The notes under the pieces were generated by a model, which was not told the origin of the DNA, searched no databases, and saw only the letters and a program-made list of their open reading frames with translations. From assembly GCA_034670405.1 (NCBI GenBank), contig JAXDDX010000043.1:3302501-3366500 (forward strand): a stretch of DNA of 64,000 bases, written 5' to 3'. Numbering within the stretch: the first letter of the stretch is position 1; each line of letters begins with the position of its first letter. A program made the position numbers and the translations under genes. The DNA comes from Hoplostethus atlanticus (Eukaryota; Chordata; Actinopteri; Trachichthyiformes; Trachichthyidae). Below, in pieces: positions 1,523-64,000 of this stretch.

Positions 1523-13685
<12,163 letters not shown>

Positions 13686-14008
13686 TTTCTAAACAGTTGA
13701 CGGTGAGGCAGAGGGTGCCGTCGTCGACGATGACCCTCCGGGCGAGCAGATGCAATTCGCCAGTAGTACTTCACGCAAAAACGGTAAATTGCACAACATG
13801 AAAACAACGAAGCATCCACCGAACAGACAAAAACAACAATTCAATCGGGGACGAACAAGTATCTCCCATTCGCTGATTTAAAATTAATACAAAACTGTCC
13901 GCTTTCCTCTTGTTGCCGAAACTGTCCCTAGTTGCTGCACAACACAAGCGGCTCCAGCATCATTTGACTAGTACGGAAGACTCGCCCGCCGTCTTCCGCC
14001 TTACAGTA

Positions 14009-37900: not shown

Positions 37901-40900
37901 ATTTTGTGATTCAGGCTGATACGACGGGTGTATCTTTACATAAAATCTTGCCTAGTGCAGCTTTAAGATGACTTCAACATAATCTAACCTCTCTGTCACT
38001 CATTGTAAACCCCAACCATCTTGTGCCCCAAGTAGGTTAAAACAAAACACTAACAAGTATTTGCTAATCCTGTCGTACTTGACAGTCCTGACCCCCCCCA
38101 AGTAAGACGACACGCTAGGCTAACCACGAACTGCTCTTTCCTGTCTGTGTGTGATTTGGTTCTCTCCGTCCGTCCTGCAGAGCCTCACCAGCTATGATGT
38201 GTGTAGCATCTTCCTGGGAACGTCTACACTGATGGTATGGGTTGGTGTGATCAGGTACCTGGGCTACTTCCAGAAGTACAATGTAAGTATGAACCTTCGT
38301 TGTACCGGCCTTTCCTTTCACTTGCACTTACATCTCAGGCATTTTAGCTAACTCTCTTATCCACGACAGCTTATAATGAGTGCAGTTGTAGAATAAGCAT
38401 GAATTTCTGGATCACCGACATTACAAGCATCAAGCTGTATGGAGAGTAATGTTCACTAGTAGGGTCCCCTCAACCTGAGAACCATAGATCCACTTTAAAA
38501 CATGGCACAATACAGTTATGTCAGTATATAATCTATACTCTGTATACTCTCACTTTAATTGCCAATAAATGTGAAAAAGATGGAGTTGAGGCATTGATGT
38601 AGACATATTGACAACTTACAGTCTTTAGAAATTGTCTTGGAGTTGTGGAACACCTATTTTCTCAAATTGTTCATGAACATGTACACACATTTATCTCAAC
38701 AAATCGAATGAATGTCTGCCTCTCACATTTTCATCACGGCTGCATATTTCCTGTGTGTCTAGGTGCTGATTCTAACCATGAAAGCGGCCTTCCCCAAGGT
38801 GCTGCGCTTCTGCTGCTGTGCTGGCATGATCTACCTGGGCTACACCTTCTGCGGGTGGATCGTACTGGGGCCATATCATGAGAAGGTAACTGAGAAAGAC
38901 TTAAAGTTGCAATGAAATTCACCATGGTAGCTAATTCTCCATATCATAACATACACGTATTTAACTACAAATGCCAAAAAAATATGAAACCTCTATCCCA
39001 TTTTTACTTCCTGGAAAATGCTGTACTTCTATTGGTTACATCATGGCATACCAGTAGGCGTACATAATTCCAACCAATAAGGTCAGGGAAGGGAAACTGC
39101 AATAATGACCTTGGAATCAGTTTCTAGGGGCAACTACATTTCTAAAAAGCACATTTGGCTCATATTTCTCTGGATATATATATATACAATATACAGCCAC
39201 TAGGTGGCAGTGTTTGTGCCTGTAAAATCTCCAAAATCGAGGACAGCAGCCCACTATCCTTTCAAAAGCTAAATACCATCAGAGAAGTATGTGAGTGTGT
39301 TTAGCTGTCCTCTCCGGTTAAGATAAATTATTTACGGAAGTTCATAAAGCAGTAGGCGTCTAAACAAGGCCACGCTCATAGGAGACACAGATGTGAGAGA
39401 GATTGAGCTCTGGGCGAGGTGAAGCCTGACTGACCAGATGGAGATTGTTGATAGTCTCAAGACGAATAACCAAATACATGTTGGACCTGTTTTTCCTCAT
39501 TTTGCCTGATGAGTTCACTGGAGATCCACATGCTCATAATTCAGAGACCATAACTCAATGATATGATAAAATCCAGTATTGTAATTCCAAACATGAACAG
39601 TGCATACTGTCAGTTCTATATGTATGCTTTCATATCCAACCCCCAAGAAAGATCTCTATATCTTCTATAAATATCAATAATTCATATTAATTGCAGTTTG
39701 AATTTACGTTTTGAGTTGACTGAGCTGTAAATGAACCGACCTCAACCCTGCCACACATGCTATCAAGTAAGGGCAACAAGCCGGCTTCAGTACCTTCTGC
39801 ATCCAACGCCGCAGCCTATTTACATTGCCGTGGCCGGGGGAGTCCCCTGTCATGACAGCCCGTCCAGGCTCCTCTCTGTGTATTTACTGAAGGAATAAAC
39901 AGAGGATGTTCCAGGACTTGCCATCCCACACGTCCTCAAAAGTGCTGTGCCTTGGATCCATACCGTCTGAGTGGGTTGTTGTGTTTAGATGCTATCGTAG
40001 CCTGGGCGATCCTTGCTCTGTCCTAGGCTGGGTTTCTCCCTTGTAGTTGTCTGTCCCTCTTTCTTTGCCTTCCTGTCTGTACCACTCGCTCTCTCTCAAC
40101 CATGTCCCTCTTTCTTCTCTTTCTGTCGCTCCTCTGCACCTCTTTGTTTTTGATATCTGTCTGTTACTGGAGGGAAAAGTCCATAAATTATTTTAAATGA
40201 ACAGCACAGTTAGTTATTGGAAAGGTTTTGTAGATAGACACATTTGAGTTTTTGTTGTTCTGTGGTTTTCATGTCTTATGCACCATGATTCCACCCTGTC
40301 CTTCTTCATTCCTGATTCATTGCACTTGCGTGAACTATTTGTGTTTTCACTTTCAAATAAATCACCTCTCTCCTCCTCCACCCAGTTTGAGGGCCTGAGT
40401 CGCGTGGCGGAGTGCCTGTTCTCCCTGGTGAACGGGGACGACATGTTCACCACCTTCGCCCAGCTGAAGAACGAGAACATCCTGGTGTGGCTCTTCAGTC
40501 GCGTCTACCTCTACTCCTTCATCTCCCTCTTCATCTACATGGTGCTGTCGCTCTTCATTGCGCTCATCACCGACGCTTACGAGACCATCAAGGTACACGG
40601 GGTGGTCAGAGTGGATGTTTGTCCCCAGCATGGCTGTGCGGCGTCACGGTCAGGCCAGAATGAGGGCACCGTATGCTCCAAATGGTGAAGCCGTATCACA
40701 CATCACCTGATAGTATTAGTGTACAAAATAGGCTGCATTCATGCCAATCTTTTCTTTATGGTGACTGTTCATATCTATTTGAAAATGTGACTTATATCCA
40801 ATACCAATATGGACAAAGGGGAATTGTAAGGAAGGCTTGAGACAAAATTTACTGACCGTTTCATTTGAATTCTTAACATAATAATCCAACATTTTCTTAT

Positions 40901-47360: not shown

Positions 47361-47794
47361 AGTAAAATATGAGAAATTTGTATATATGTAATATAAATTA
47401 TGTGTAGTCACTATTTTTGCACTAATTTCACATTTTACTTATTTTTTATTTTTTATAAGATACATTGCTATTGTGTAAAACTGTATTGAAGGGAGGCAAC
47501 TGTGTGTTTAATCGTATTCAAGGCAGCTTCTTCCAGTAAAAGGATTTTTAAATGTGAACTTCCCTTTGGCGTTAGATCATGTAATCTCAGAAGTTATTTG
47601 GCCTTGAAAAAATTGGCACAATACAAAGACCTGGTGTATTAAAACATTTCAATCTCACCACTCCTATCGTCCCATCCCCGTCTCGTTACAGTGTAATAGA
47701 TTGATGTGGCGTTCTGAAATGCAATCCAACAGTTTAATAGGTTTTTGTACCCATTCATTCTTTTCATTCTCATCCCTACAGACTCCCCATCAAA

Positions 47795-50700
47795 ATGGAC
47801 AGGCAGAACCAGTGCCACTATGGCGAGCTCATGGGCTTCTTCTACAACAACAGCAACCAAACCAAAGATGAATGGGACTCCACCCAGCTCATCCTGGTCC
47901 AGGTGGTGGGCTCTCTCTTCTGCTGTTTTATCCTGGTCTCCAACGCCATGGTCATAGCTGCTATCATCACCAACAAGAGGTTCCACTACCCCTTTTACTA
48001 TCTCCTCGCCAATCTTGCCGCCTCGGACTTCCTCGCGGGGATAGCGTACGTGTACCTCATGTTTAACACGGGTGAAGTGTCCAGAAAACTGACGGTCAAG
48101 GGCTACTTCATCCGCCAAGGTCTTCTGGACACCAGTCTCTCGGCCTCGCTGGCCAACCTGCTGGTGATCGCTCTGGAGCGCTACATCTCCGTCATGAACT
48201 GGAAGGTTCACAGCAACCTGACCAAGAGGAGAGTGACCCTGCTGATCGTGCTGGTGTGGGCTATCTCCATCTTCATGGGGGCAGTGCCAAGCCTGGGCTG
48301 GCACTGCATCTGCAACCTGGAGGACTGCTCCCAGCTGGCGCCCCTCTTCAGCAGGAGCTACCTGATCTTCTGGTCGGTGTCTAACCTGGTAGTGTTCCTG
48401 GTTATGGTGTCCATCTACTTGAGGATCTACACGTATGTCAAGAGGAAGACGTCGATGCTGACTCCACACACCAGCGGCTCCATTACCCGCAAGAGGACGC
48501 CCATCAAGCTCATCAAGACGGTCATGGCTGTGCTTGGTAGGTGTCCAGCACCGCACAAAAATGTTGTCAGTGCAGCACTTTTACTGAAACAGCTGTGAGT
48601 TACAATCTCTTCAGCAGCGAGTGAGTGCGAGTTGTTGTGCTGTCGTATGCTTTTGCGTCAGAGTTAAAGGGCATGCACAAGCTGGTCACAAAGTCCAAGC
48701 AACTGAGTCACTGCTGAACACGTTGGATTGTAATCTGTGTTTTCCTGATAGGAGGTAAAGCCCTGAGCAACTTTGCTAATGTCTAAATACTGTTTATGCT
48801 TTCAGTGAATGTGCTAAGTGCTTGCCCAGTATCTTTTAAAGGCACATGAGTTTCACCTTCTAAGTGGGGCTTAAAAATGCTGTTACTCAACAATAACAAT
48901 GAGAAGGATACAGAATAGAGGAAACATTCAGTCGTAGGCTAGCAGAGGGACATGTAGCTCCAGAGGTAGTGGCTCTTACCCAGTTAACATACTGTTCCTT
49001 GGGAAGTCTCTCAGATCATATTACCTCGTTTTTATACCTCAGGTGCTAAAAATAAACACTAATTTTTCCAAAACAAATCACGGGTTTCCGGGGCAAGGAA
49101 GTGCGAAAAGGCTGACGTTTACTTCATCGTATGCATTTTCATCCTACATGAGGCTGGCAGATATGCTGTCCTGGGTGTCTCTGTCTAGGTGTATATGGTG
49201 TTGAAACAGGATACGCTGCAGTGAACACAATGCCCAGATCACCCCTCCCTCCCTTTCACACAGCTCTCAGGTGACTTTGATCACTATCTGCCAAAGTTTA
49301 AGATGTTGAATTTGCTCAGCGTTTTGTTATAACACTTTTTTGTCATTGTTCTTTGTATTTTTGTGTGCTCTGCTTCCCCGGCCGGGTGGCTAGATAGCGT
49401 AGCATAGGAGCTATCTACCTCTGTACACAGTGTCTTCCAGGCTGCTGTGTAATTATCTCTACCTGCAAGGACACCGTCTGTGCGGCATACCGGCCGCACC
49501 ACACTGAGACTGCATGCTCTGTGGCCTTCACTGGAACCCCCCCCACCCCTGCTGAAGAACCTGTACTTGACGGCTCTGCAACGAGTCAGCAAATGCTTTC
49601 AGATGCCCCATTGTCCCCTTTAGCCGGTTAACCTGTTGTTGCTCTGGTGTCTTCCTTGAATTTCCAGCTCAGATTGTTGTGACTTTCCATTGTGCGTTTC
49701 ATTGTATTTATTTGGAGCCAGCAGGAATATGTCCACACTGATCTATGAGTGCCATCAGTTCTATTTCCAAATAGAGGAAATGCTGCTGCAGAGAATGATG
49801 ACCAGACATGCTCTATAAATGGTGAAGATTACATTTTACGTGCCAACACAGAAATTGACTTGACAAATTGAACGACTTAATCAGACAAAAAAGGGAATAT
49901 GGGGAGAGAAAGGAATCTCAAAATCAGGTCAGGCCCATTATTAGGGTTACATTAAGCAGAAAAACAGTTTGTTTGGTGAATAGCAGTCTGCTACGGTGGA
50001 AATGGCAACTGGATAAACCAGTTTAGTGACACATAACCCAGCCTTGCTTTACTGGAACTAGATTAAAATGAATGAGTGCAGAAATTGGATGTGCATATAT
50101 ACAGATTACTAGTCATGGAGAGGTGATAGTAGCATTGTAATTGTGGGTGACCTGTACTGAAGAACAAATAACCTAGAAGTGAACATGTTCTTGTTTATAA
50201 ATGTACCTTTTAATGAATGATTAATGCTACGGTAATGTAAAAGAAAAAAAGCACTATTGCACTATTTTGCACGACAGACCTAATGCACTAGGCGTAAGCG
50301 AGTGAGAGCATCACACTGCAATATGTAGGTTTTAGAGATTCTGTTTCTCGAGGAGCAACCACTATGCTTGTTGAATGAACACTGCCTAACTATAGGAGCA
50401 CATGTGCTAGAAACATACTTCCCTCCAAAACCCAGATGTTTTTTTTTATGTCAAAGATTACAGGGAAAGAAAGTGCACTTTTAAAGGGGGGTATTATATC
50501 ATAAACTGCCAGTGGAACCCCATTTGATGGGGTTTCACAGTAAAATCTGTAGAATTTTTCATTATCAGTCTTAATGATGGTGGAAAACTATGAGAATAAG
50601 AACTGAGGTCAGCACTTCCATCAGACCCTTTCAGTTGGCGTGGGTGTGAGTGTGTGAGAGAGACAGTTACAAAAGCACAGCATTGTATTCAAATGCAATA

Positions 50701-51971
50701 TAAAATACAAGTTAAATTTCACACACACAAACAAAGATACAGACACACGTTTTATTTGATGTCTTACACACAGTATAACACAGGCATGGACACAACAACG
50801 ATTTAAGGGTAGAGTTACCGCCTATCCTTTATATAATCAATAAAAGGTTGCTACGTTTTCTGAAACTTCTCAGTGGAATCTCGTAATGTGAATTTTTCTC
50901 TTTTTTTTAACCTATTTAGCACAGCTCTTTTGTTCTGCCGACGCACTGAAACTGTAGAGATGCAGGTAGCACAGACAAGTTGCTACTTGTGGCTTCTGTT
51001 CAGTCCCAGAAGTCCCTGCTCTGTGCCCCAACATGTTTGAATGGGGTGACTAATTGGCTGGGAATTCTGCTCAAATTGCACAAAAATGGGAGCCACCATA
51101 TTATTTACCAAACACATCAATATGCCAAGAAATGTAAAAGTTTCCATTCCATTTAAAACGATCGTGGCATTGCATCCCTATTAACATTTCATTAACAGCA
51201 GCTCAACAGCGCATCTTTGATGCTGTTCATTTTAATGTGACGTGTCTAAGTAATCTAAGTAATAAAAGTATCCAGTTTCTATGTTTCAGCTTCATTAGTG
51301 GAAGTACAAATAGATCCCGAGTTAGTTTTCATTAGTTCATATATTTGCAAAAGGTGTTTTGCTTACTTACCTATGTGAAGAGCTTGTTCCTCTCAGGCGT
51401 TGAGTGACAGTAGCCTAGAGGAAGCAGGCGTGGGACCGGTAGGTCGTCGTTTTGAATCCCTGAACCGGCTGGGAAAGTCTGGGAGGGGAAAGTAATTGAG
51501 CAAACACAACTGTGGTTGTTCTGGGCAGCTCACAGGTGTGAACGCATGTAACTGTATGAGTTAAAAGTGTGTTGCTGAAAACACATGTTGCTTAAATAAA
51601 GGTTAGCTGTCTAACTGTGTTTTGGTGTTATTTTTCCTCTAGGGGCATTCGTGATTTGCTGGACCCCCGGCCTGGTGGTTCTACTGCTGGACGGCCTCCA
51701 CTGTGAGAAATGCCGGGTCATGGTCTTCAAGCGCTGGCTACTGCTCCTGGCTGTACTCAACTCTGTCATGAACCCCTGCATCTACTCCTACAAGGATGAG
51801 GAAATGTGGACAACCTTCAAGAACCTCCTGCGCTGCATAGGCAATGGCACTCGGCGGCAGCGGTCATCAAGGGCCAATGCCAGGCCACTCAGCTCTGCTC
51901 AGGACACTGGCACCAGTCAGCCTCCCTCAGAGGAGGCTAAGGGTGACGATCAGGGAATGCTCAAGACCTGA
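47795..51971 (+). CDS. lpar3: lpar3, lysophosphatidic acid receptor 3, complete coding region in two exons
   Basis: Class A GPCR of the EDG group; mammalian LPA3 couples to Gq and Gi and prefers unsaturated LPA. Exons 47795-48536 and 51643-51971 join in phase 1 (G|GG) and encode 356 aa. The N-terminus has sequons at Asn18 and Asn21. TM1 starts near residue 31. LLANLAASDF marks TM2. RQGLLD carries the LPA-head-group pair Arg107-Gln108, ERY (128-130) replaces DRY, CWTP (253-256) is in TM6, Lys277 fits the TM7-side ligand lysine, and NPCIY (291-295) is the NPxxY motif. RKTSMLTPHTSGSI in loop 3 is typical of LPA3. The intron after TVMAVLG is in the expected place for LPAR1-3. An acceptor AG at 47780-47781 implies a noncoding 5' exon. 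The C-tail after NPCIY is divergent. Confidence 0.96.
51400..51606 (+). repeat. tRNA-derived SINE just before lpar3 exon 2
   Basis: The head AGTAGCCTAGAGGAAGCAGG and GACCGGTAGGTCGTCGTTTT then GAATCCCTG fit degenerate A and B boxes. The tail ends TTAAATAAAGGTTAGCTG, about 40 bp from the exon's acceptor. Confidence 0.6.
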
Positions 51972-54366
51972 AATCGGAGAACCAAAACCAGTTCACTCTG
52001 GAACTTCTTAAGAACTTCCTGGGACTCTTCGGCTCTGGTTGGACATCCTTTGTGATGATCTAGATAGGTGTTGACTTCAGACAAGCCAAACACTTCATCC
52101 TCAGTCTCAGTAGGTCATCAAGAGATACTACAGGTGACCTGCTCCAGTGTAGGATAGTGACCTTTGATGTGTTATTAATGCCCAAATTGGGTTCAGGGGT
52201 GTGATTCTTCAGGGTTTTTTCCTTCAGGATTTCCTGTTTTTTGGACACATAACTCCCATTCATGTTTAATGGAAGACACTTGTTCCGGTTTCTTCCTGCT
52301 TTTTGTGCTCCTGATCACATCCCTGTTGGTTATTTAAACTTGGAGGAGGACTGAAGAAAGATTCTGATATGAAATACAGAACGGTACATTTCTCCTTTTA
52401 TCTCAAAGTCTAAAAGGGTAAAAGTGATGCACAGGGTGGCTTCGCTTGCTCCCCAAAGTAAATCTTCAATGAAAAAAAGTTCAATGAAATTTTGCTGTAG
52501 GTTTACTTCTTGTATATGCTTTTAAAGGAAGCAGTACTGTAATGGATGAACTAGTTAAGAAGTGTAACTCGCTTATAGTCAGGTACTATAAAACTGTAGG
52601 CTTGCTTGGGGAGGGAGCAGTTTAAATGATGAAACATACTATAAACTACTGTACTATATCTGTCTACTCGTACATTTAATGAAGAAGTGACTAACTGTAA
52701 CACAACTAGCATAGACGGCGCTATTCTGGGCTCTAGTCACAACTCAGATCGGATAATCACACATCATCACCTTGCTTTGTGCAACAGTTTTGCTCTGGAG
52801 TAGATAACAAGCTCACTGCGGTTCCTACAATCTGTCTCCCTTTATTAACTCAACTAAACAAACAGACAGAGTCCCCAGCTGCAGCACCTCACCAAGGCAA
52901 ACCTGTTCTGCCTGTGGCATTTTTACACATCTTGTCCGACTCCTTCAGTGGCCGCTGGATCTCCGACGAAATGGTTGCTCACCAGAGAGCGCAGGGGTTG
53001 TGATGAAATGATGTTGCGACACACTGGATTCCTGCTGGAGATATAAGCCGTGTACCTGCAGGACCAGGCAAAGATATGACTGAAGTAGACTGGAACTCCC
53101 CACAGCCCAACCCCCCCCCCCCCCCCGAGCTGCCCTGAAGACGCCAATGATGAATCATTGGCCAAATGGCACTCTCTTCAACCTGCTGTACAGTATTTAT
53201 GCTAGTTCAACCACTCCTTCTGTAAAGGAAATGACTTCATTAAAGCCGTTTTGGTTTCAGCTAGGGTGTGTAGGAATGCTACATATGTGAGTTGCGTAAA
53301 AACTCAAAAAATGGTCACTGGTGTTTCATTACCTTTTGGGCCTGTGAAACCATGAGCCTACGTGAGCGTTCTTTAATTAATTTCTGAAAACCTTTTGGAG
53401 ATCTGTGGTTTTCATCCAACAACAGCAATGTGTCATGCATGTGTGTTTATGTTTGTGCGCATGAACTTGATAAGATAAATGTCGTATACGGTGTCTATGA
53501 TGATTGAATTGTGAAAACACTAGCCGCATGCCACTGAGATAAATTATATAGAAACCGCAAGAGGCAGAGAGGCTTGAAAACCATACTGCTATAAAAATGG
53601 TCTTTGACCACATAGTTGACCTTTGATATGACAGTCAAGATGACCATGACTCCCTCAAAATACCACACCTGGTCTTCTGTATTCCATCAGGATTATTCAG
53701 TTAGTGTCAGGTAGTCATCAATAAAAGATTCAAAGCAACTTTGAAAGAAACCTTCAAGGCATTTTCCTGTAATTTTATACATTTTCTGGCATTCATTGTA
53801 CTTGGCCACCTATCTCAATGTGTAAAAAGGACCTGCAAATACATTTGACCCACGTCTGTCTCCTAATTCATATTACACACGTCATATTACACAAACAATA
53901 TCGGCCGCGATTTGCTCTAAAGTAACCATCGTAATTGCAGTCTATGAAGAACTGCTGCCCTAGATTGCATGTGCTCAAGAGGTGGTACTTCAGGGTGATT
54001 TACTCTGCTCAGACCAATTGGTTTTCATTGAGTCAATCAAGTTATTGGCTGAAGTGCTTGAGAGAAAAGACGTGGCATTTAAAGGAGAGGTCAAGATCCT
54101 CTTTGGGATTAGACTGTACTGCACTTGCACCAGTAATAACAATCACGTAACATTATTTGAAGGTAAATTTAGTATTTCTGTGATTAACAATTCACCTGAC
54201 ACTATCTGAACTGTCCTGATACAGTAAACAGTCACCCATGTATTACTCAGAACATGTTAAAACGGGCTGAAAACTGTTTCAACAAGGTGTGGTAGTAGTA
54301 ACACTGAAAGAAGCTGTTGTCTAAAGGGAGGGAAATCTAACGTTAAACCACGTAATGTAGAGCGTA

Positions 54367-54699
54367 CACCCAGTGGCCGCTTTATTAGGTACACCTGGAT
54401 ACCTGCTTGTTAAAGCAAATATCTAATCAGCCAATCATGTGGCAGCAACTCAATTCATAAAAGCATGCAGCCATGGTCAAGAGGTTCAGTTGTTGTTCAG
54501 ACCAAACAGACTTGGGGAAAAAATGTGATATATGTGACTTTGACGGTGGAATGGTTCGTTGTTGTGGGATTTTCACACACAACAGTCTTAGAGTTTACAG
54601 AGAATGGTGCGAAAAGTGACAGTTCTGTGGGCAAAAATGCCTTGTTGTTGGTCCTACCCAGTACTAGAAAGGTATACCTAATAAAGTGGCCACTGAGTG
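54367..54699. mobile_element. TIR element, CAGTGGCCACTTTATTAGG family
   Basis: Ends CACCCAGTGGCCGCTTTATT and AATAAAGTGGCCACTGAGTG are inverted repeats of about 30 bp with few mismatches, with TA on both flanks. No coding capacity. A widespread family in fish genomes. Confidence 0.85.
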
Positions 54700-56423
54700 T
54701 ATATGCATGTATTCTGTGCATCTAAATATAAATGAAAAATGATACAATCTGTCTACCTATTTCATTTTTGCTCTTTCGTCTCTATACTGTTAATATCATG
54801 GAGATCCAGTGACCTCCCAAGAGCCCTTGAATCCTGTTACAGTTTCAGACTTCCCCTCTAATTTGCCCGAGTCTTTAAATCCAACTGATGCACCCGAATC
54901 ATTCGCTTGCAAGTCTATTGTTCACAATCATTCATTCTTTGCAACCACAAAACCACAATCACTGTTTCATTTCCCCTCATATTGTGGGTAATATGCTTTT
55001 ATGATATTCCTTTTAAAATCCTTCTATGCATTAAAATTAAAGACATCATCAAGGATTTAGTCACCTAAACCAAACCAGTATCTTATGACTGACAACAGAA
55101 AAGAGAAAGTGAAAAACTGTACTGGGGACTTTAATGATATATAAGTTTCAGGGTAAACTTTGACTCAATTGAAGTTCGGTCATGTGGTTTCCATTAAGAA
55201 CATAGTGTAGGGAGTATGTCATCAGCAGAGCCCACCAGAGACCTATCGTGACTGTTGCCCGCTGCTCTGGTTTTACATTCCCAAAAACATGAACTGTAAA
55301 CTGTGGTGTGGCGCGCTTTTTTCTACAGCTGTGCTGTAATTATGCCTTCTTGAAAAGCCAATTAAATTTCACAGATGGTCGGAAATGCTGTCTTTTGGTT
55401 GTTGTTAATTTCAGTGCAGGCAAACAGTTGGAGGCAGAGATGGGGAGTGTATGAAATTGCTTTATTCATACATTTATTTTCAGCAGCACGTACAGCAAGT
55501 CATTGAAATATGCTTCAAAGTCAAACTTTCCATGACTTCTGCAGTCCCAGGACCCACGATCACACAGTGAATAGAATCACCACTGGTTTAAGAATCACCA
55601 AATATAATAAATGTTCTTGGTACACGGTGCCATGGAGACATATCGACACCTTTCAGAGTTTCACAGCTCATACTGAGCTCATAGGAGCTCATAAACAGCA
55701 TACAGGGACAGGAAGATATATGACAGATGGCACACTATACAAATCTTATACTTGTTCTGGGAAGTTATACTGTGTTTACATGCCGTTCGGTGGATGCTTA
55801 CAATTCCATGAGTGCATACACTTACAACAGGGTTGGCCCCAGTGGAAACCACACCCCTAACCCTGGCAGTGTTAGTGCCATGCTCTACACATTAAGGTAT
55901 ACACAAGGTTTGATCCTTGTGACAGCCAATGTTTCCATGTGTCCTGTTGACCCTGAACTCCTACCTGCATTGGTGCATTGGTGGACCTACATTCATGTTT
56001 ACCAGGATCACTGGCCAGGGTTGCATGATCATATTAAATTTCCAACATCACTTGATAGAATTTATATTTATCTTCTATTATAAGATAATGAACATGGAAT
56101 CAGATCACATGGAAGATCTGCAGGACTCTGCAGGACTCTGTAGCTGTGCTATTTTCAAACAGTGCCTGAGTGTACAATTCAGGTTCAGCTCTTTAGTTCT
56201 GTCTGTGGCGTCACCCGACAGGGTGATGAAGGTGAATTGAGGCACCTTGCGAAAGTGCCCATGCTCAAACTCTGATTGGAGAGCCTCTTCTACTGATTGG
56301 AGAATTAGGAGGAGAGGGAGGGGAAGGGAGGGGAAGGGAGGGGAGGGAGAACGGGGGAGGCTTCAGGAATAGAAGGCATGGTGGTGCAGCGATAAACCAT
56401 ATGTACATGCATTTTTGCCCACA

Positions 56424-56425
<2 letters not shown>

Positions 56426-56472
<47 letters not shown>
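56426..56472. repeat. (CA)n just upstream of the guanylyl cyclase start codon
   Basis: CA dinucleotide repeat ending about 60 bp before the proposed start codon at 56534; probably within the 5' UTR or proximal promoter. Confidence 0.9.
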
Positions 56473-56475
<3 letters not shown>

Positions 56476-56533
56476 GTCACTCGGTCACCCAGTCAGTCAG
56501 CTCAGAACTCCTACGACCACAGCAGCAGTCCTC

Positions 56534-58317
56534 ATGGCTCTATCGACAGTGGCATCCCTCTACCTGTCTTTCCTGCTGGTAAGTTGTCGGCACTGTGGAT
56601 GGCACTGGGAGGATTTACAACTGGGGCTATGATGAAGGTAATTCCAAAGGGGAATACGAACCAAGAGCCATGGATGTTTGAGGTTAACCTGTAACTGTAC
56701 TGCAACGTGAGGTGGCGTGGAAGTAGGGTCGAAGCGAATGAACTGCATCTTCCTTTGAGGATATTGAACAGAGAAAGGAAGGCAAACATTTGTAGAAATG
56801 TAGTCTATAAAATTCACTTTTCCTCAATTGCCGAGGAACCCCCCCATGCTTTTGTTGTCTTGTCAGAAACACTTGTTGCTGCAGACATGGCTTGTGTTCT
56901 TTCAGTGTATCGCTTGGTTACTTGCTGCTGTCTGGGAAAGGATTTTTGGGGCTGATTGTTGAGATTCTAAGATATCCTAAAATCTATCTGTTTTTTTTTT
57001 TTCTGATTCAAAGATAAATTTATGATTTTGAGTCAATTATGTTATCAAATCATTAACACACCAGCCTGCTTTTGGTGGGGGGGGTGGCTTTATTGGTGGT
57101 TTTATTTCGGCACTAGTGTCATTATCATTTGGACTTACAAGCAAAGGGACTCTACAGAGGGGAGTTATGTATTTCACTTATTTACACATAGCCAGCACTG
57201 ACTCTTTAGACAAATCACTGTACACACATTGCACCTGTGGCATATCAACATAACATCAAACTTCATTGATCAGTGCAATAAAATCCCCTTGCATAGATCA
57301 GCTTGCTGTCTTGCCTGCAGGGAGTAAATTGCTGGCATGATCTGGACAACACAGAGTATGACTGTTGGCCGATCAACAACCCAAATGATTACAACATGAT
57401 TAGCTGTGGTGGTAAGTCCTTTTACATCTGTATGTCTGTCTGAGTCTCTATCTGATTGATTGTGTCACTGACTTGCTTTATCAGTGAGTTAAAACAGCTG
57501 ATGTTTCGTTTCAAGTTTCAAGTTAATTGTCAAGTCAATTTACACAAGAGAGTGAAATTCTTCAGTGTTGGTTTAAGTGGAGATATGTGATGATTTACTG
57601 GACGTGGATGGATGTCTAGTTCTGGCTGAAAAGGAAGGAGAGGCACTTATCCAGAGTGACTTAAAATGAATGTGCAGATTGTGGTTCATTGTCTCAAGGA
57701 CACTTCAACTGAATGTATGGCTGTCGATGGACACACGCTAGCTGTTAGAGGAATTGAACCTGAAATCGAAAGTGCATGCGTGTATATCTGCATGTGCAAA
57801 TGCACTGCATGGTATCCCTTTATGCATGCATGTGCTTGCGGTATGAGGCGTGCATCGTAATGTTTTGATGTTTGTGTGTGCACGCCCCTTTGTGTGTATC
57901 TACTGTATGCATCTATGTGCCTGCATGTTCACATGCATGTGTGTGCCTGCAGGTCTGGAAATGGCTTGGGTGCAGCGTCCTCCAGAGAAAGTATCCAACG
58001 GGGAGGAGTTCAATGTCACCTACACGGTGACGGCTTCAGATTCCTTCTACGAGTATGCAATCAAGAACAAGATCTTCCAGTTCAGGTGAATGTGCTGCAT
58101 AAACCCTGGAATCCTGACCGCCTGCCGTGCCCAGACAGGGATACAAGCACACATGCATGCACGGACACAAACCTTCCCTCACATAAACATTTGATTTATT
58201 GATTGTAATTTGGAAGGAAGATGCTGGGGAAAGTCAAAAGAAAAACATCAAGGTCTTAAAGGTGACAGTCAATTATACAACTTGGCGAGACATAGAACAA
58301 ACAAGATCAAACTCTAT

Positions 58318-58378
<61 letters not shown>

Positions 58379-61300
58379 CAGGTATGTGGCACAGTGGGTC
58401 ACCACTACAGCGCCAGGAAGGAACTAGTGTGTTCCTTTCAGGAATGTTCAGGAACAAACATTTGCCAATAGTTGACCACAATCTATCCATGACAGATTCT
58501 ATTGTATGGTTATGGATGATCATGTTCACTGCCTTCAAATCTTTCATCTTCATTCATCCGTTTTTCTACTGACCCATCTTCCCTTCCAGTGTTGCGTCAG
58601 AGGCCAAAAGATTCTGTCATGACCACGAGTGCCCAGCAAACTGGAACAACGCCAATGAAATGAACTGCTGTGTGTACCATGCCAACATCCACTCCTGCCC
58701 CCTCGCCCTCATGGTCAGTAGCCACCAGAGTACTGATCATCACTGTGTTTTTCTTTACTCTCTTCCTCTGTAAAACCTGTGTGTCTGTACTGCATTCCAC
58801 CACCTCCACCACCACTTCCCTGCCAAGCCACATCACCATCACCTCCACACTCGCAGCTTACACCTGTAATCAAATACTGACTTCAGCTCGTCGCGTCAAA
58901 GACTTCTTTCTCTCTGCACCAAAGTCAATATCTTTATTACTTTTTTCCAGCCCGAATATGACGAATCTCAAACTAGTGAGTATGAGATTACTCAAGAGTG
59001 ACTTTAGACTACAACACATTCATCAGTTTTTGCCCAGTGATGTTTTAAGGTATATTTCCTTACAAGGGCAACATGACCTTGTGAAACCTTGGTGGAGACG
59101 GCAACTTTAGTGAATGAAGGAAGAAATCCACATTTATGAATTTATGAAGAATTTCAAAAACACTTCGGGGGGAAAAAATCTGAACTTAATCATACTAGAT
59201 TTAAAAGAAATTGAAAATCAAGCATGTTTAAGTGTGATTTTACCTTCTCTCCTAGAGTGCCATAAAACGTTTTAATGTTGTGCACTCTAGGACACTGGAT
59301 ATCATATTGCAAGAGCAGCGGTCACATTTTGGAATGAAACCCTCCAAATAGTTTTCGTGTCTTCACAGAGACAAGGTGGAATATGTGGCCCATGGATTCC
59401 TGACGACGGGAAGATAGTGACTCACACTGTGTCCAAAGCAGGCACGATGACCCAGAAATACTGGACTTCAAAGGTAAGCCAACCCAAACATACCCTCTTC
59501 ATGCTGTTCTGTAGCCTGATGGTTCAGAAGAGCCACTGAGTCAATGAGTGGTGTTTATAAGAATCTGTTTCATTTTTCTACTTGTTTATAAAAGTCACCG
59601 AAAATGACCCGATTATTTTGTTGGCTTGATTCACAATTCTGTCCAGTTTTGTTTTGAGTCAGAAAAATACAAGAAATCGAAATGACAGAAATTTGTTTTG
59701 GTGACATTGAGAGTGCCAAGACGTATTTACTCCATGGACAAGGATACAAGGACATTTTGGTTCTTTCATTCTGTCGTTTCATTTAGGTGGTGCTGGTCCA
59801 CTTGGGAGTCACTTCGGTCATTGCCCATATCAAAATCGGCCAAATGCATGCAGCCCTGGAGTCTAAGGTGCTTGTTGTCAGCGCCCAAGGTCAGTCAGAC
59901 TAACACCCATGAAGTATCCATTTGTTGTTATGCTGAAGAAAACTTTGGCTGCTGAGCGGTGGTGAGGTATTTCTAACCACATTGGTGTTTTATACAATAA
60001 TAGAAAAGAGACTTTTAACCAGGCATCATTTCAAAACAATTGGTATATTAGCGTAACACATTAAAGTGTGTGTGTGTGTGCGCATGTGCATGTTTTTTTC
60101 ATCCTTAAACGTCTTTAAAACATGCTGTAATATTTGAATCTAATACAGTTCAATTCACTGGGAGGAAATAAAGAGTCTAAAACGTGTGAATGTGTCTTAG
60201 TGTGCGGGGACGATGTCTGCGAGCTGGAGGAGAACTGCCTCAACTGCCCTGCAGACTGTGGCATCTGCCCAATGTCCATCACTATCAAGGTGGCCATAGG
60301 GCTGCCTGTCACCCTCTTCTGCAGCGGCTTCATCTTAACCATGGTGGTGAGCCTCCAGAACACACACACACACACACACACTCACACACACACATAGACA
60401 CACACACATGTGCTTCCAGATGTTTGGCACTGCTGTTTTTTTGCCAACTTCATTTCTTCTCTACAGTGGCTTCAGTACCAGAAACAGAAGATGTTTTGGG
60501 ATGAGAGTTGGATCATCAACTACAAGAACATAATGTTTGGTAAAATCTCTGACATGGAAGGTGCCAACAAATACTGACGTTATACAGACTAGAAAATCTG
60601 ATGTTCCGTTCTGTGAAACCTCAAGACTTCAATATTCAGTATACTTCAAGGTTGGGTCACTATTTATTTCCCTTCAGTCAATCCAGGAAGTGACTATTCT
60701 TCAAAAAGAATAACTGAGAACAAAGGCTTTATCATTATTATGTGAATTGCAGTCTCAATTCAATTTTGTTTTTGAGTGAATTGAAAGTAAATTCAAAAGA
60801 AACCCTTACACTTGGAGTGTGACCTGGATTTTTGTACTTTCACAATCATTCCATTTTATTTTTGAATTGCAAGTAAATGGATCCCGTCTCTGATATACGT
60901 ACGTTTAATACACGTATTGTCTGGGCTCCACAGGTAAAGTGTGCTATATGGGCTTCTGCAGTACCACCAGTCTCCAGCCAGTCAAGAGTAACTCCAGTGT
61001 CAGCCACAACACTGATGTGACGGTGTGCACTGTGGTCAACACCTCCTTCAAACAAGGCTTCATCCAGCCAGGCATCTAGTGAGACACTTCATCATTAGTT
61101 TATTTAGTTTATAAGTAATAGAAGTATAAAGATGCCATGCATGACTTTATTCATTCAGCCTACTAGTGAGACACTCCACTTGACTCCTTTACAGCTTATC
61201 AATCAGTAACATACAATCAATAGCAGTGTAAAGATTAACAAGTGGGCCTCACTTATAAAATCTTCTTTGACTTCATCCATTGTATAATATTTAAAAGAAT

Positions 61301-64000
61301 ATGGTAAAAGTTGCATATATCGCCTTCATACTGTCAATGACTGAACCAGTGAACCCAGGAGCAGACACAAGGCAGGAGACAAGGGTAGAACAGGTAGCAC
61401 AGATCAGGGCACACAGACAGGTCATCTACTACTGATAGCTACTAGAGCAGTGGTAGTGACTATGAACGTAACACGACGAACTAGCAACAACAAAGGGGAC
61501 AGCAGGGCTTAAATAGGTGACGGTGGCGTGATTGGGATGGGTAGCAGCAGGGCAGCAGCAGCAGGGCAGCAACCAGTGACACTCCTACCAACCTGCAACC
61601 GAGGGAGACAGAGATACACACAGATCACAAGCTGAGACAGAAAGACACTAGGGAACAGGGGTGGAGGAGGATGCAGGCCGGGCAGGTGTGACACATACCT
61701 TCAATGTTGGTTTTTGATATAAAACAGAAAACTGAAAAAAAACGATGTAACCTGTTGATTTTTGACTTGGTTTGACTTGGATTTGTTTGAACCTAAGAGC
61801 TTTTTATTAAGGAGGCCCCCTGATCACTATTTCAGTTTAATAAAATGTCCATTATACAGTATGAGAAGTGTCATATACACAAAACGATTGATAGCACAAA
61901 ATTAAAACCTTTATAAAGGATAGAAAGTAATTTTATTCTATGGTTGACAAATAATATTTGTACAGACTGGATATTTGCTGATGAATTTAGCATCTAACCA
62001 CGTGTTCACTTGTTGATTGTAATTATCTTTAAGTGATGGGAGGACGGTGGCAGTGAAACACATCCAGAAGAAGCATTTCGCCCTGTCTAAAACCATCAGG
62101 AAGGAGGTGAAAGAAGTTAGGTGAGGAATATCTTCCCTATTAAGCACCTGGTTAAGTTTGTGTATACAATATCGGCTCTTTATACTACCAAGAGGTACTG
62201 AGTTGAATTTGTTGAAAGTCGAAGACTGAGTTGAAATGAAAGCTTCTGCACGGTGCATATGAGCTGATTTGGTTCATGTTTCATTATGACTAGGGAACTG
62301 GATCACCCCAATCTATCCAAGTTCATTGGTGGCTCCATCGAGGTGCCCGACATCAGCATCATCACAGAGTACTGCCCCAAAGGAAGCCTGTCGGATGTCC
62401 TGCTGAATGAGGACGTCCCCATCAACTGGGGGTTCAGGTGAGACAACCAGACGGCTTCACAGTAAATATGTTCACAGTCGAGTTTTACATCCACATTTAT
62501 TTTGGCATTTGGTTGACATTCTGAACCATATTTGTATTATTGTTATTAGTTGTTGTAGTAGTAGTAGTAGTAATACTAGTAGTAGTGGTGGTAGCGGTAG
62601 TAGTAGTTATTACCACTTGTCTTTTATTTACCTCTATCAGCAACGCCCTGCTCCTCACATTCATACAGTTAGAAATATTCTCACTGGGCGCCGACGGGTC
62701 GATGTACTGCAGGTCCACTGAGTAGCTCCATTGGCGTGGCTGAGGGGTTAGGTACCTTGCTCAAGGGGGTCAAGCAGTTGAGGGCTAAGTGACTTGCTAA
62801 AGGGCACAACCTGTCACTGAAGTCTGACATGTGATATCCGGTCATCCCTGCTGTCCGTCAGGCTGTCCTTTGCCACCGACGTCGCCCGTGGGATGGCCTA
62901 CCTCCACCAGCACAAGATGTTTCATGGGAGACTTCACTCCAGGAACTGTGTCATCGACGACCGCTGGGTCTGCAAAATCTCAGGTAACCAAATACTGACA
63001 TCATACACCTCACGCAGACGCAATGCAATCACAGATACTTGTCTGTGGACCCATGTGTCATTTGTGGGGTACTGGCCAGTAGATCCTGGGTAAGTTAAGT
63101 CAAATCTTTATTGTCCCTCTCTTTATGAGGGCAAATTCTATTTTCAGCAAATGACACATACATGGCAAACAAGAGTGAAACATACACAGAATTTGACAAG
63201 GACATTAAGAAAAGAGGGTTCTCCTCAGGAGTCGTTGTAAAAGATAGTGTCAATACCAAGGCAAAGTACAAAAACAATATCCTGAATCACAGTAACACTG
63301 CCTTTTTATTTGACTGTGTGTTTGGCTCCAGACTATGGGCTCACAGCCTACAGAAAGGAGGACTTTGAGGCTGTCAGTAATGGCTTCCATTGTGGGGATA
63401 TAAATCGTATATACTGTGCCCCAGAGGTCCTGCTAGGAAGCAGCTCCAATATCACACCAGCAGCAGACATCTACAGGTGTGTTTGACTGGTATAAGAAGT
63501 TTGTTGTATGTCTTAGACTCTGCTAATTGGACCACATGAACATCATTGTAGGGTTGAAGCATTGTTTAATTAAAGTAATGGCAATGGAGGTATGGTGTCC
63601 AGGCGTTTTCCTTCATTACTTCATTCACGGCACCCCCCCCTCAGCCAAGAGCCTTCATGGTGATGTATGTATGCCCCATTCCTACACCCCTGAGTCATCT
63701 TCCATTCACATACATGAACAGTTTTTATTTCATTAACTGAATCTAAAACAAGTTACTGGACTGCACTGCAATAGGTAATGAAAATGATATAACCTCTCTG
63801 CTGTGCCTTCCTCTTCCCAGCTACTCCATGATCCTCGTTGAGATTGCAACTCGCTCTGACCTCATTTCAGTGAGTATGGCGAGCTCTTTCTGTAGATTAC
63901 AACCTTTGAAACCCCTTTGATGTTTGCTTTGTAACTGGCAGTCCTCCCTAACAGGACCAGGCTGCGGGAGTGAAGATGGATATTATGTGGCGTCCCCCTC
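56534..64000 (+). CDS. Membrane guanylyl cyclase with short Cys-rich ectodomain, 5' part (cyclase domain beyond window)
   Basis: Exons, all in phase: 56534-56578, 57321-57411, 57953-58085, 58590-58713, 59369-59473, 59787-59889, 60201-60346, 60467-60539 (or -60560), 60934-61078, 62034-62120, 62294-62437, 62862-62983, 63332-63476, 63821-63869, 63955-64000+. Exon 1 is a signal peptide, MALSTVASLYLSFLL. The ectodomain is about 230 aa with about 15 cysteines and ends in CGDDVCELEENCLNCPADCG. One TM helix follows (IKVAIGLPVTLFCSGFILTM), then WLQYQKQKMFWDESWI and a kinase-homology domain: VAVKHIQKK (Lys kept), ITEYCPKGSLSDVL, HGRLHSRNC (catalytic Asp absent) and DYGL in place of DFG, as in receptor guanylyl cyclases. 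The usual natriuretic-receptor ligand fold of about 430 aa is missing. Ligand unknown; cGMP production is inferred, because the catalytic domain is not in the window. Confidence 0.85.
58320..58376. repeat. (CA)n microsatellite
   Basis: CA array in guanylyl cyclase intron 3. Confidence 0.95.
60360..60409. repeat. (CA)n microsatellite
   Basis: Interrupted CA array starting 13 bp after the donor of the TM-domain exon of the guanylyl cyclase gene. Confidence 0.9.
62555..62606. repeat. (TAG)n trinucleotide repeat
   Basis: GTAGTAGTAG-type tract with interruptions, in an intron of the guanylyl cyclase kinase-homology region. Confidence 0.85.

Follow-up and report, generated by a model that had tools for sequence, protein, structure and literature searches.

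A receptor guanylyl cyclase gene with a short, cysteine-rich ectodomain in the fish Hoplostethus atlanticus

Results

A receptor guanylyl cyclase gene of 23 exons

We analyzed a window of 64,000 nucleotides (C43:3302501-3366500; contig JAXDDX010000043.1) from the 632.8-Mb genome of H. atlanticus and additionally read the next 20 kb downstream. The gene order along this region is ankrd13c-like, cth-like, mcoln-like, lpar3-like, the cyclase described here, and ssx2ip. Two of the neighbours have Pfam support (ADIP, 3.4e-23, for ssx2ip; 7tm_1, 7.5e-8, for the lpar3-like gene), while the other names were given by eye to open reading frames. The receptor guanylyl cyclase gene comprises 23 exons (C43:3359034-3372150), which after GT-AG splicing of the genomic DNA form a single frame of 838 residues. 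The window covers exons 1-14 whole and part of exon 15, and the remainder lies just downstream. The encoded domains are, in order, a signal peptide, a short ectodomain, one transmembrane (TM) helix, a pseudokinase domain, a linker, and a cyclase domain. The features are listed below in window positions unless a contig is named; exons 1 to 14 were assigned by frame and splice sites, with further evidence in brackets.

13134-13688, minus strand: ankrd13c-like (open reading frame by eye)
from 16978, plus strand: cth-like (open reading frame by eye)
40248-40688, plus strand: mcoln-like (open reading frame by eye)
47741-48598 and 51615-51971, plus strand: lpar3-like exons (open reading frame by eye, 7tm_1)
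56534..56578, plus strand: exon 1, start codon and signal peptide MALSTVASLYLSFLL (hydropathy)
57321..57411, plus strand: exon 2, N-terminal Cys block (CWHDLDNTEYDCWP..ISCG) (73% identical exon at C247:349723-349812)
57953..58085, plus strand: exon 3, ectodomain, one N-glycosylation sequon NVT
58590..58713, plus strand: exon 4, ectodomain, NEMNCCVYHANIHSCPL
59369..59473, plus strand: exon 5, ectodomain, GGICGPWIPDDGK
59787..59889, plus strand: exon 6, ectodomain, TSVIAHIKIG
60201..60346, plus strand: exon 7, six-Cys membrane-near block CGDDVCELEENCLNCPADCGIC and TM helix in the same exon (hydropathy)
60467..60539, plus strand: exon 8, juxtamembrane
60934..61078, plus strand: exon 9, start of the kinase-homology domain (alignment to PDB cyclase sequences)
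62034..62120, plus strand: exon 10, kinase-homology domain, VAVK lysine (Pfam)
62294..62437, plus strand: exon 11, kinase-homology domain (conserved on C247)
62862..62983, plus strand: exon 12, kinase-homology domain, HGRLHSRN replacing the catalytic HRD
63332..63476, plus strand: exon 13, kinase-homology domain, DYG replacing DFG
63821..63869, plus strand: exon 14, kinase-homology domain
63955..64000, plus strand: exon 15, cut at the window end, continuing to C43:3366562
C43:3366693-3372150, plus strand: exons 16-23, linker, cyclase domain, and stop

A 25-base exon at 58951-58975 in an earlier gene model broke the frame and was dropped.

The intracellular part carries the residues of a guanylyl cyclase

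In the whole protein, Pfam detected two kinase families, HNOBA, and Guanylate_cyc at E<=0.1. The kinase match (3e-40) spans residues 324-563, HNOBA corresponds to the linker (2.8e-6), and the cyclase domain that had been expected downstream was found beyond the window (Guanylate_cyc 9e-68, residues 629-813). Among PDB sequences, GC-A (atrial natriuretic peptide receptor 1) scored best with 478 bits, followed by guanylyl cyclase C with 347 bits; both human proteins aligned over the kinase-homology domain, the linker, and the cyclase domain. The motifs SDIVGFT, VETIGDAY, and CLFGDTVNTASRMES align to GC-A. Presumably, SDIVGFT and ETIGDAY bind metal, and the glutamate of VETIGD and the cysteine of CLFGDTVN recognise guanine; all are present in the protein. 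On these presumed roles, the class III guanylyl cyclase domain carries the metal, guanine, and triphosphate residues.

The kinase-homology domain lacks the catalytic aspartate (HGRLHSRN, DYG), which together with the VAVK lysine fits an ATP-binding pseudokinase. GC-A has a known phosphorylation-site region after the TM helix. The first 64 residues past the TM helix did not align to GC-A, so a region of this type may be absent from the new protein and its regulation may differ.

An ectodomain without a match in the libraries searched

As in receptor guanylyl cyclases, a signal peptide and a single TM helix precede the kinase-homology domain. Exons 1-7 (56534-60346) share one reading frame across GT-AG junctions, and the signal peptide, the 225 residues before the TM segment (signal included), the 15 cysteines, and the TM helix come from this stretch as originally predicted; the kinase-homology domain, which had been counted among the same exons, begins past 60346 (exons from 60467 on). 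The cysteines lie at positions 19, 30, 44, 99, 104, 116, 117, 126, 137, 202, 207, 213, 216, 220, and 223, and NVT is the one sequon. Hydropathy peaks at residues 1-19 (1.57) and 231-249 (2.12), with the TM helix at approximately residues 227-249. A lower peak at residues 167-185 (1.46) was read as a beta-strand, and by eye we would guess that the middle of the ectodomain resembles a beta-sandwich. All four membrane-near blocks quoted earlier are present in the spliced protein; CGDDVCELEENCLNCPADCG, described as a repeat, occurs once.

Residues 1-249 matched no Pfam family at E<=10, and the ectodomain matched none of 177,635 distinct PDB sequences at E<=10 (phmmer), nor did the six-Cys block alone match a PDB sequence at this threshold. 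The ectodomain is new to the Pfam and PDB libraries searched. Relatives of it were also absent from IMG/VR and prokaryote contigs in a search that detects close relatives, and the cyclase query matched nothing in IMG/VR.

Exons of the ANF_receptor type were sought genome-wide, yielding 125 matches with 115 of 247 candidates scored. None of the matches listed was on C43 or C247. The cyclase locus on C86 has ANF_receptor exons, yet it is missing from this listing, which indicates that the search overlooks weak exons. We therefore used five ANF-type ectodomain pieces from other loci (C18, C25, C282, and two from C86) as tblastn probes. As controls, the C86 locus was matched by the retinal pieces from C18 (3.7e-6) and C25 (1.4e-6), and the C18 locus by the two pieces from C86 (1.8e-5 and 2.1e-6), while the C282 piece, evidently in a wrong frame, matched neither. 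In the window from 50000 to 64000, the best E value of these probes was 0.57. As the lpar3-like 7tm_1 exon ends at 51971, just about 4.5 kb remains for hidden upstream exons. Neither the genome-wide listing nor the tblastn probes found an upstream ANF-receptor exon set, named in the original prediction as evidence that would count against it, and the short, Cys-rich ectodomain without an ANF-type match is borne out by the Pfam, ANF_receptor, and tblastn searches. Among the matches listed, a dense ANF_receptor cluster was seen at C3:9839544-10158523, which we take to be probably fish V2R/OlfC-type olfactory receptors.

A conserved paralogue on contig C247

Outside its own locus, the ectodomain query matched one exon, namely exon 2 on C247 with 71-73% identity; a further match on C15 was at chance level (E 0.6). 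The C247 gene has similar kinase and cyclase exons (72% identity over 340 columns). C247:350001-355000 reads N, which leaves exons 3-9 of the paralogue unreadable, so that within the ectodomain exon 2 alone was compared. The ungapped nucleotide identity of exon 2 is 0.74, compared to 0.37 over 60 bases of the following intron, and its 29 codons show 9 synonymous and 8 non-synonymous changes. Judged by this comparison of sequences, the conservation of exon 2 is more than chance. Over 344 exon-bounded codons, the two copies differ with a pS of 0.76 (saturated) and a dN of 0.14; exon 2 by itself gave 0.82 and 0.17, respectively. Saturated synonymous sites along with the dN of 0.14 point to purifying selection over a long time.

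The path length between the copies is 0.39, compared to 0.29 for the pair C66a-C341 and 0.39 for the pair C18-C267. This would fit the teleost genome duplication, to which ssx2ip linkage adds no support. Pieces of ssx2ip, lpar3, and mcoln had no match in C247:340001-372000 as far as it is readable. A second ssx2ip-like gene, with exons 54-78% identical, is located at C31:260336-261027 and is unlinked to the C247 cyclase; an interpretation of the C247 copy as an ssx2ip-linked duplicate is unsupported.

The paralogue also bears on whether the gene model might be an artefact, or the gene decaying, with ectodomain and cyclase exons stemming from different genes. The exons were joined by eye and script on genomic DNA alone, which leaves room for such an error. 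However, exon 7 itself unites the Cys block and the TM helix, the 23 exons run in one frame with no stop, and the paralogue likewise carries an exon of the exon-2 type in front of a cyclase of the same kind and intron pattern. We consider an artefact very improbable: the gene is real and complete, and the enzyme, known here from genomic DNA, is probably active.

Position in the cyclase tree and introns of the cyclase domain

The genome gave 129 cyclase-domain matches, from which 15 loci were chosen by exon pattern as single-cyclase genes. The remaining matches were taken as adenylyl cyclases; individual checks of L001-L004 gave a reading for L002 and L004 (C98), large-exon genes whose long frames presumably resemble adenylyl cyclase 9. 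The 15 loci comprise two of the class described here, three natriuretic-like, one GC-C, four retinal-like, and three soluble-like loci as well as C86 and C133, the class names being putative and based on resemblance to GC-A and GC-C. The tree covers 441 columns and 17 rows, that is, one genome and two PDB sequences; the rows of the other genes were assembled from tblastn exon matches and fill between 154 and 456 of the 468 columns.

The window gene is 40-55% identical to the other rows and 72% identical to C247, with which it forms a clade of its own (100/100), outside the natriuretic (99/99), retinal (100/99), and GC-C (100/100) groups. C86 is a weak sister of the pair (81/88), with two long branches of 0.58 and 0.76; C133 and C3 also sit on long branches. 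A tree without the three soluble-like rows and C133 showed the same groups, with C86 as sister at 85/88. In AU tests, a joint clade with the natriuretic group was not rejected (p 0.075), while a joint clade was narrowly rejected for the retinal group (p 0.049) and for GC-C (p 0.029). Placement inside a known vertebrate subfamily, which had been named as speaking against a separate class, was not seen for the natriuretic, retinal, or GC-C clade in the two trees.

The C86 gene (C86:19001-29000; L038) is a receptor cyclase outside the NPR, retinal, and GC-C clades, whose ectodomain pieces match ANF_receptor (3.7e-11 and 1.6e-9). It is perhaps GC-G, which is a guess, and a GC-G placement of the window gene has as its only candidate this locus of unsure identity and weak sister position (81/88, 85/88). 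At C133:1116001-1139000 (L042, L036, L037), a cyclase-domain gene shares 55% identity with the window gene across 232 columns and shows no kinase-homology match within the 15.7 kb read before its linker exon; it is either a cyclase of different build or one with distant exons.

All 13 other cyclase loci compared have an intron directly before V-ETIGDAY and are unbroken between YF and SDIVGFT. In contrast, the window gene and C247 (2/2) lack the intron before V-ETIGDAY and have one after GDA and another at YF/SDIVGFT, so that both positions occur in 2/2 copies and 0/13 other loci. Since the soluble-like genes have the common pattern, the change most simply occurred on the line to the window-gene class. 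The pattern marks a separate history and says nothing on age.

These data allow an alternative to be weighed in which the gene is no old class, and is instead a fast-evolving GC-G-like or natriuretic-lineage relative whose ANF-type ectodomain was swapped within fishes. The ANF_receptor ectodomain of the sister C86 and the unrejected joint clade with NPR are in line with this. However, the sister support is under the usual threshold with both branches long, the cyclase-domain introns differ at two positions from C86 and the 12 other loci, and the ectodomain contains no ANF domain that we could find; overall, we regard a swap as rather unlikely.

Discussion

A candidate further class of receptor guanylyl cyclases

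Domain order, signature residues, a separate tree position, and a conserved paralogue characterise the gene described here. From its sequence, we consider it likely that it encodes a functional receptor guanylyl cyclase that crosses the membrane once and stands apart from the GC-A/B, GC-C, and GC-D/E/F classes in a class of its own. Most likely, it would represent a further vertebrate class with its own ectodomain. An ectodomain without library match, together with a grouping with no compared class, suggests that the protein may be an extra, little-studied hormone-type receptor.

For receptor cyclases, the proposed steps of activation include ligand-driven rotation, derepression of the kinase-homology domain, and pairing of the cyclase domains, as outlined in the parts of the literature consulted (PMC5225109, PMC2754085). 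The window protein has every part needed by this mechanism. The receptor would probably work as a homodimer, in which the compact, putatively disulphide-rich ectodomain may bind a cue from outside the cell, most likely a small protein or a peptide. The change could then be relayed via the six-Cys block abutting the membrane, the TM helix, and the pseudokinase, which would release the linker and allow the two cyclase domains to pair and produce cGMP.

Alternatively, the cyclase might be controlled from inside the cell, with a merely structural ectodomain. In retinal cyclases, activation comes from calcium-binding proteins inside the cell, the GCAPs (PMC5225109), so that a cyclase of receptor shape does not necessarily need a ligand from outside. 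However, the window gene lies outside the retinal clade (100/99; joint clade p 0.049), and the conservation of ectodomain exon 2 between the copies is weak evidence for a ligand. We hold intracellular control to be improbable and favour an extracellular cue.

Regarding age, human MCOLN2/3, LPAR3, and SSX2IP presumably lie in this order on 1p22 with no cyclase between them, which would mean a loss in the human line. In the literature searched, guanylate cyclase, ssx2ip, and lpar3 came together in one paper, by its title a mouse colon expression data set. An ancient origin and a loss in mammals would be plausible, the age being judged from a one-genome tree with two PDB sequences, the introns, and the presumed human gene order. 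Similar ectodomains may exist in invertebrate deuterostome cyclases, as the original prediction suggested. We tentatively suggest, as a possibility slightly less likely than not, an eighth vertebrate class whose ectodomain has a fold of its own and binds an undiscovered ligand outside the cell; this class would predate the vertebrate genome duplications, persist in two copies in this fish, and have been deleted in the mammalian line from the LPAR3-SSX2IP interval.

We did not find a description of the gene in the literature searched, and the statement is confined to that literature. Automatic fish-genome annotation probably already has the gene under a generic name; the novelty therefore lies in the ectodomain and the class rather than in the presence of a cyclase gene. 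If a further class with a sensor domain of a different kind is conserved, fishes would have a cGMP input that has so far gone unread and a new receptor awaiting deorphanisation, and the way in which receptor cyclases acquired their ectodomains could be approached anew.

Comparison with known receptor cyclases

The portion of PMC1435932 consulted lists natriuretic, retinal, sensory-organ, and enterotoxin/guanylin classes in vertebrates and no further one. The ANF_receptor-type ectodomain of the GC-A to GC-G classes was not detected in the window protein by the searches above. According to PMC2754085, an extracellular domain is not predicted for some receptor-cyclase-related pseudokinases of the human, mouse, rat, and fly sets, and some likewise lack a predicted ANF domain; ectodomains lacking an ANF match are accordingly not unheard of. 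Coral sperm GC-A was dropped as a match, as the excerpt of PMC6787079 describes a protein of 1,049 residues with a ligand-binding domain.

Compared to GC-A/GC-B (NPR1/NPR2), the window protein has the same signal peptide, single TM helix, pseudokinase, linker, and class III guanylyl cyclase, with 48% identity to PDB NPR1 over 468 columns from the kinase-homology to the cyclase domain. It differs in its ectodomain of approximately 205 residues without an ANF_receptor match, where GC-A/GC-B have an ANF-type domain, as well as in its juxtamembrane stretch, two cyclase-domain introns, and its separate clade. GC-C (GUCY2C) shares the general intracellular plan, with 41% identity to the PDB sequence, but falls into a separate clade (100/100; joint clade p 0.029). 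The same intracellular plan is found in GC-D/E/F, where the four retinal-like loci are 45-47% identical and form a separate clade; ANF_receptor matches occur at three of these four (C18, C25, and C282), with none at C267 among the matches listed. The C86 cyclase is the weak sister in both trees, but has an ANF_receptor ectodomain and the intron pattern of the other loci.
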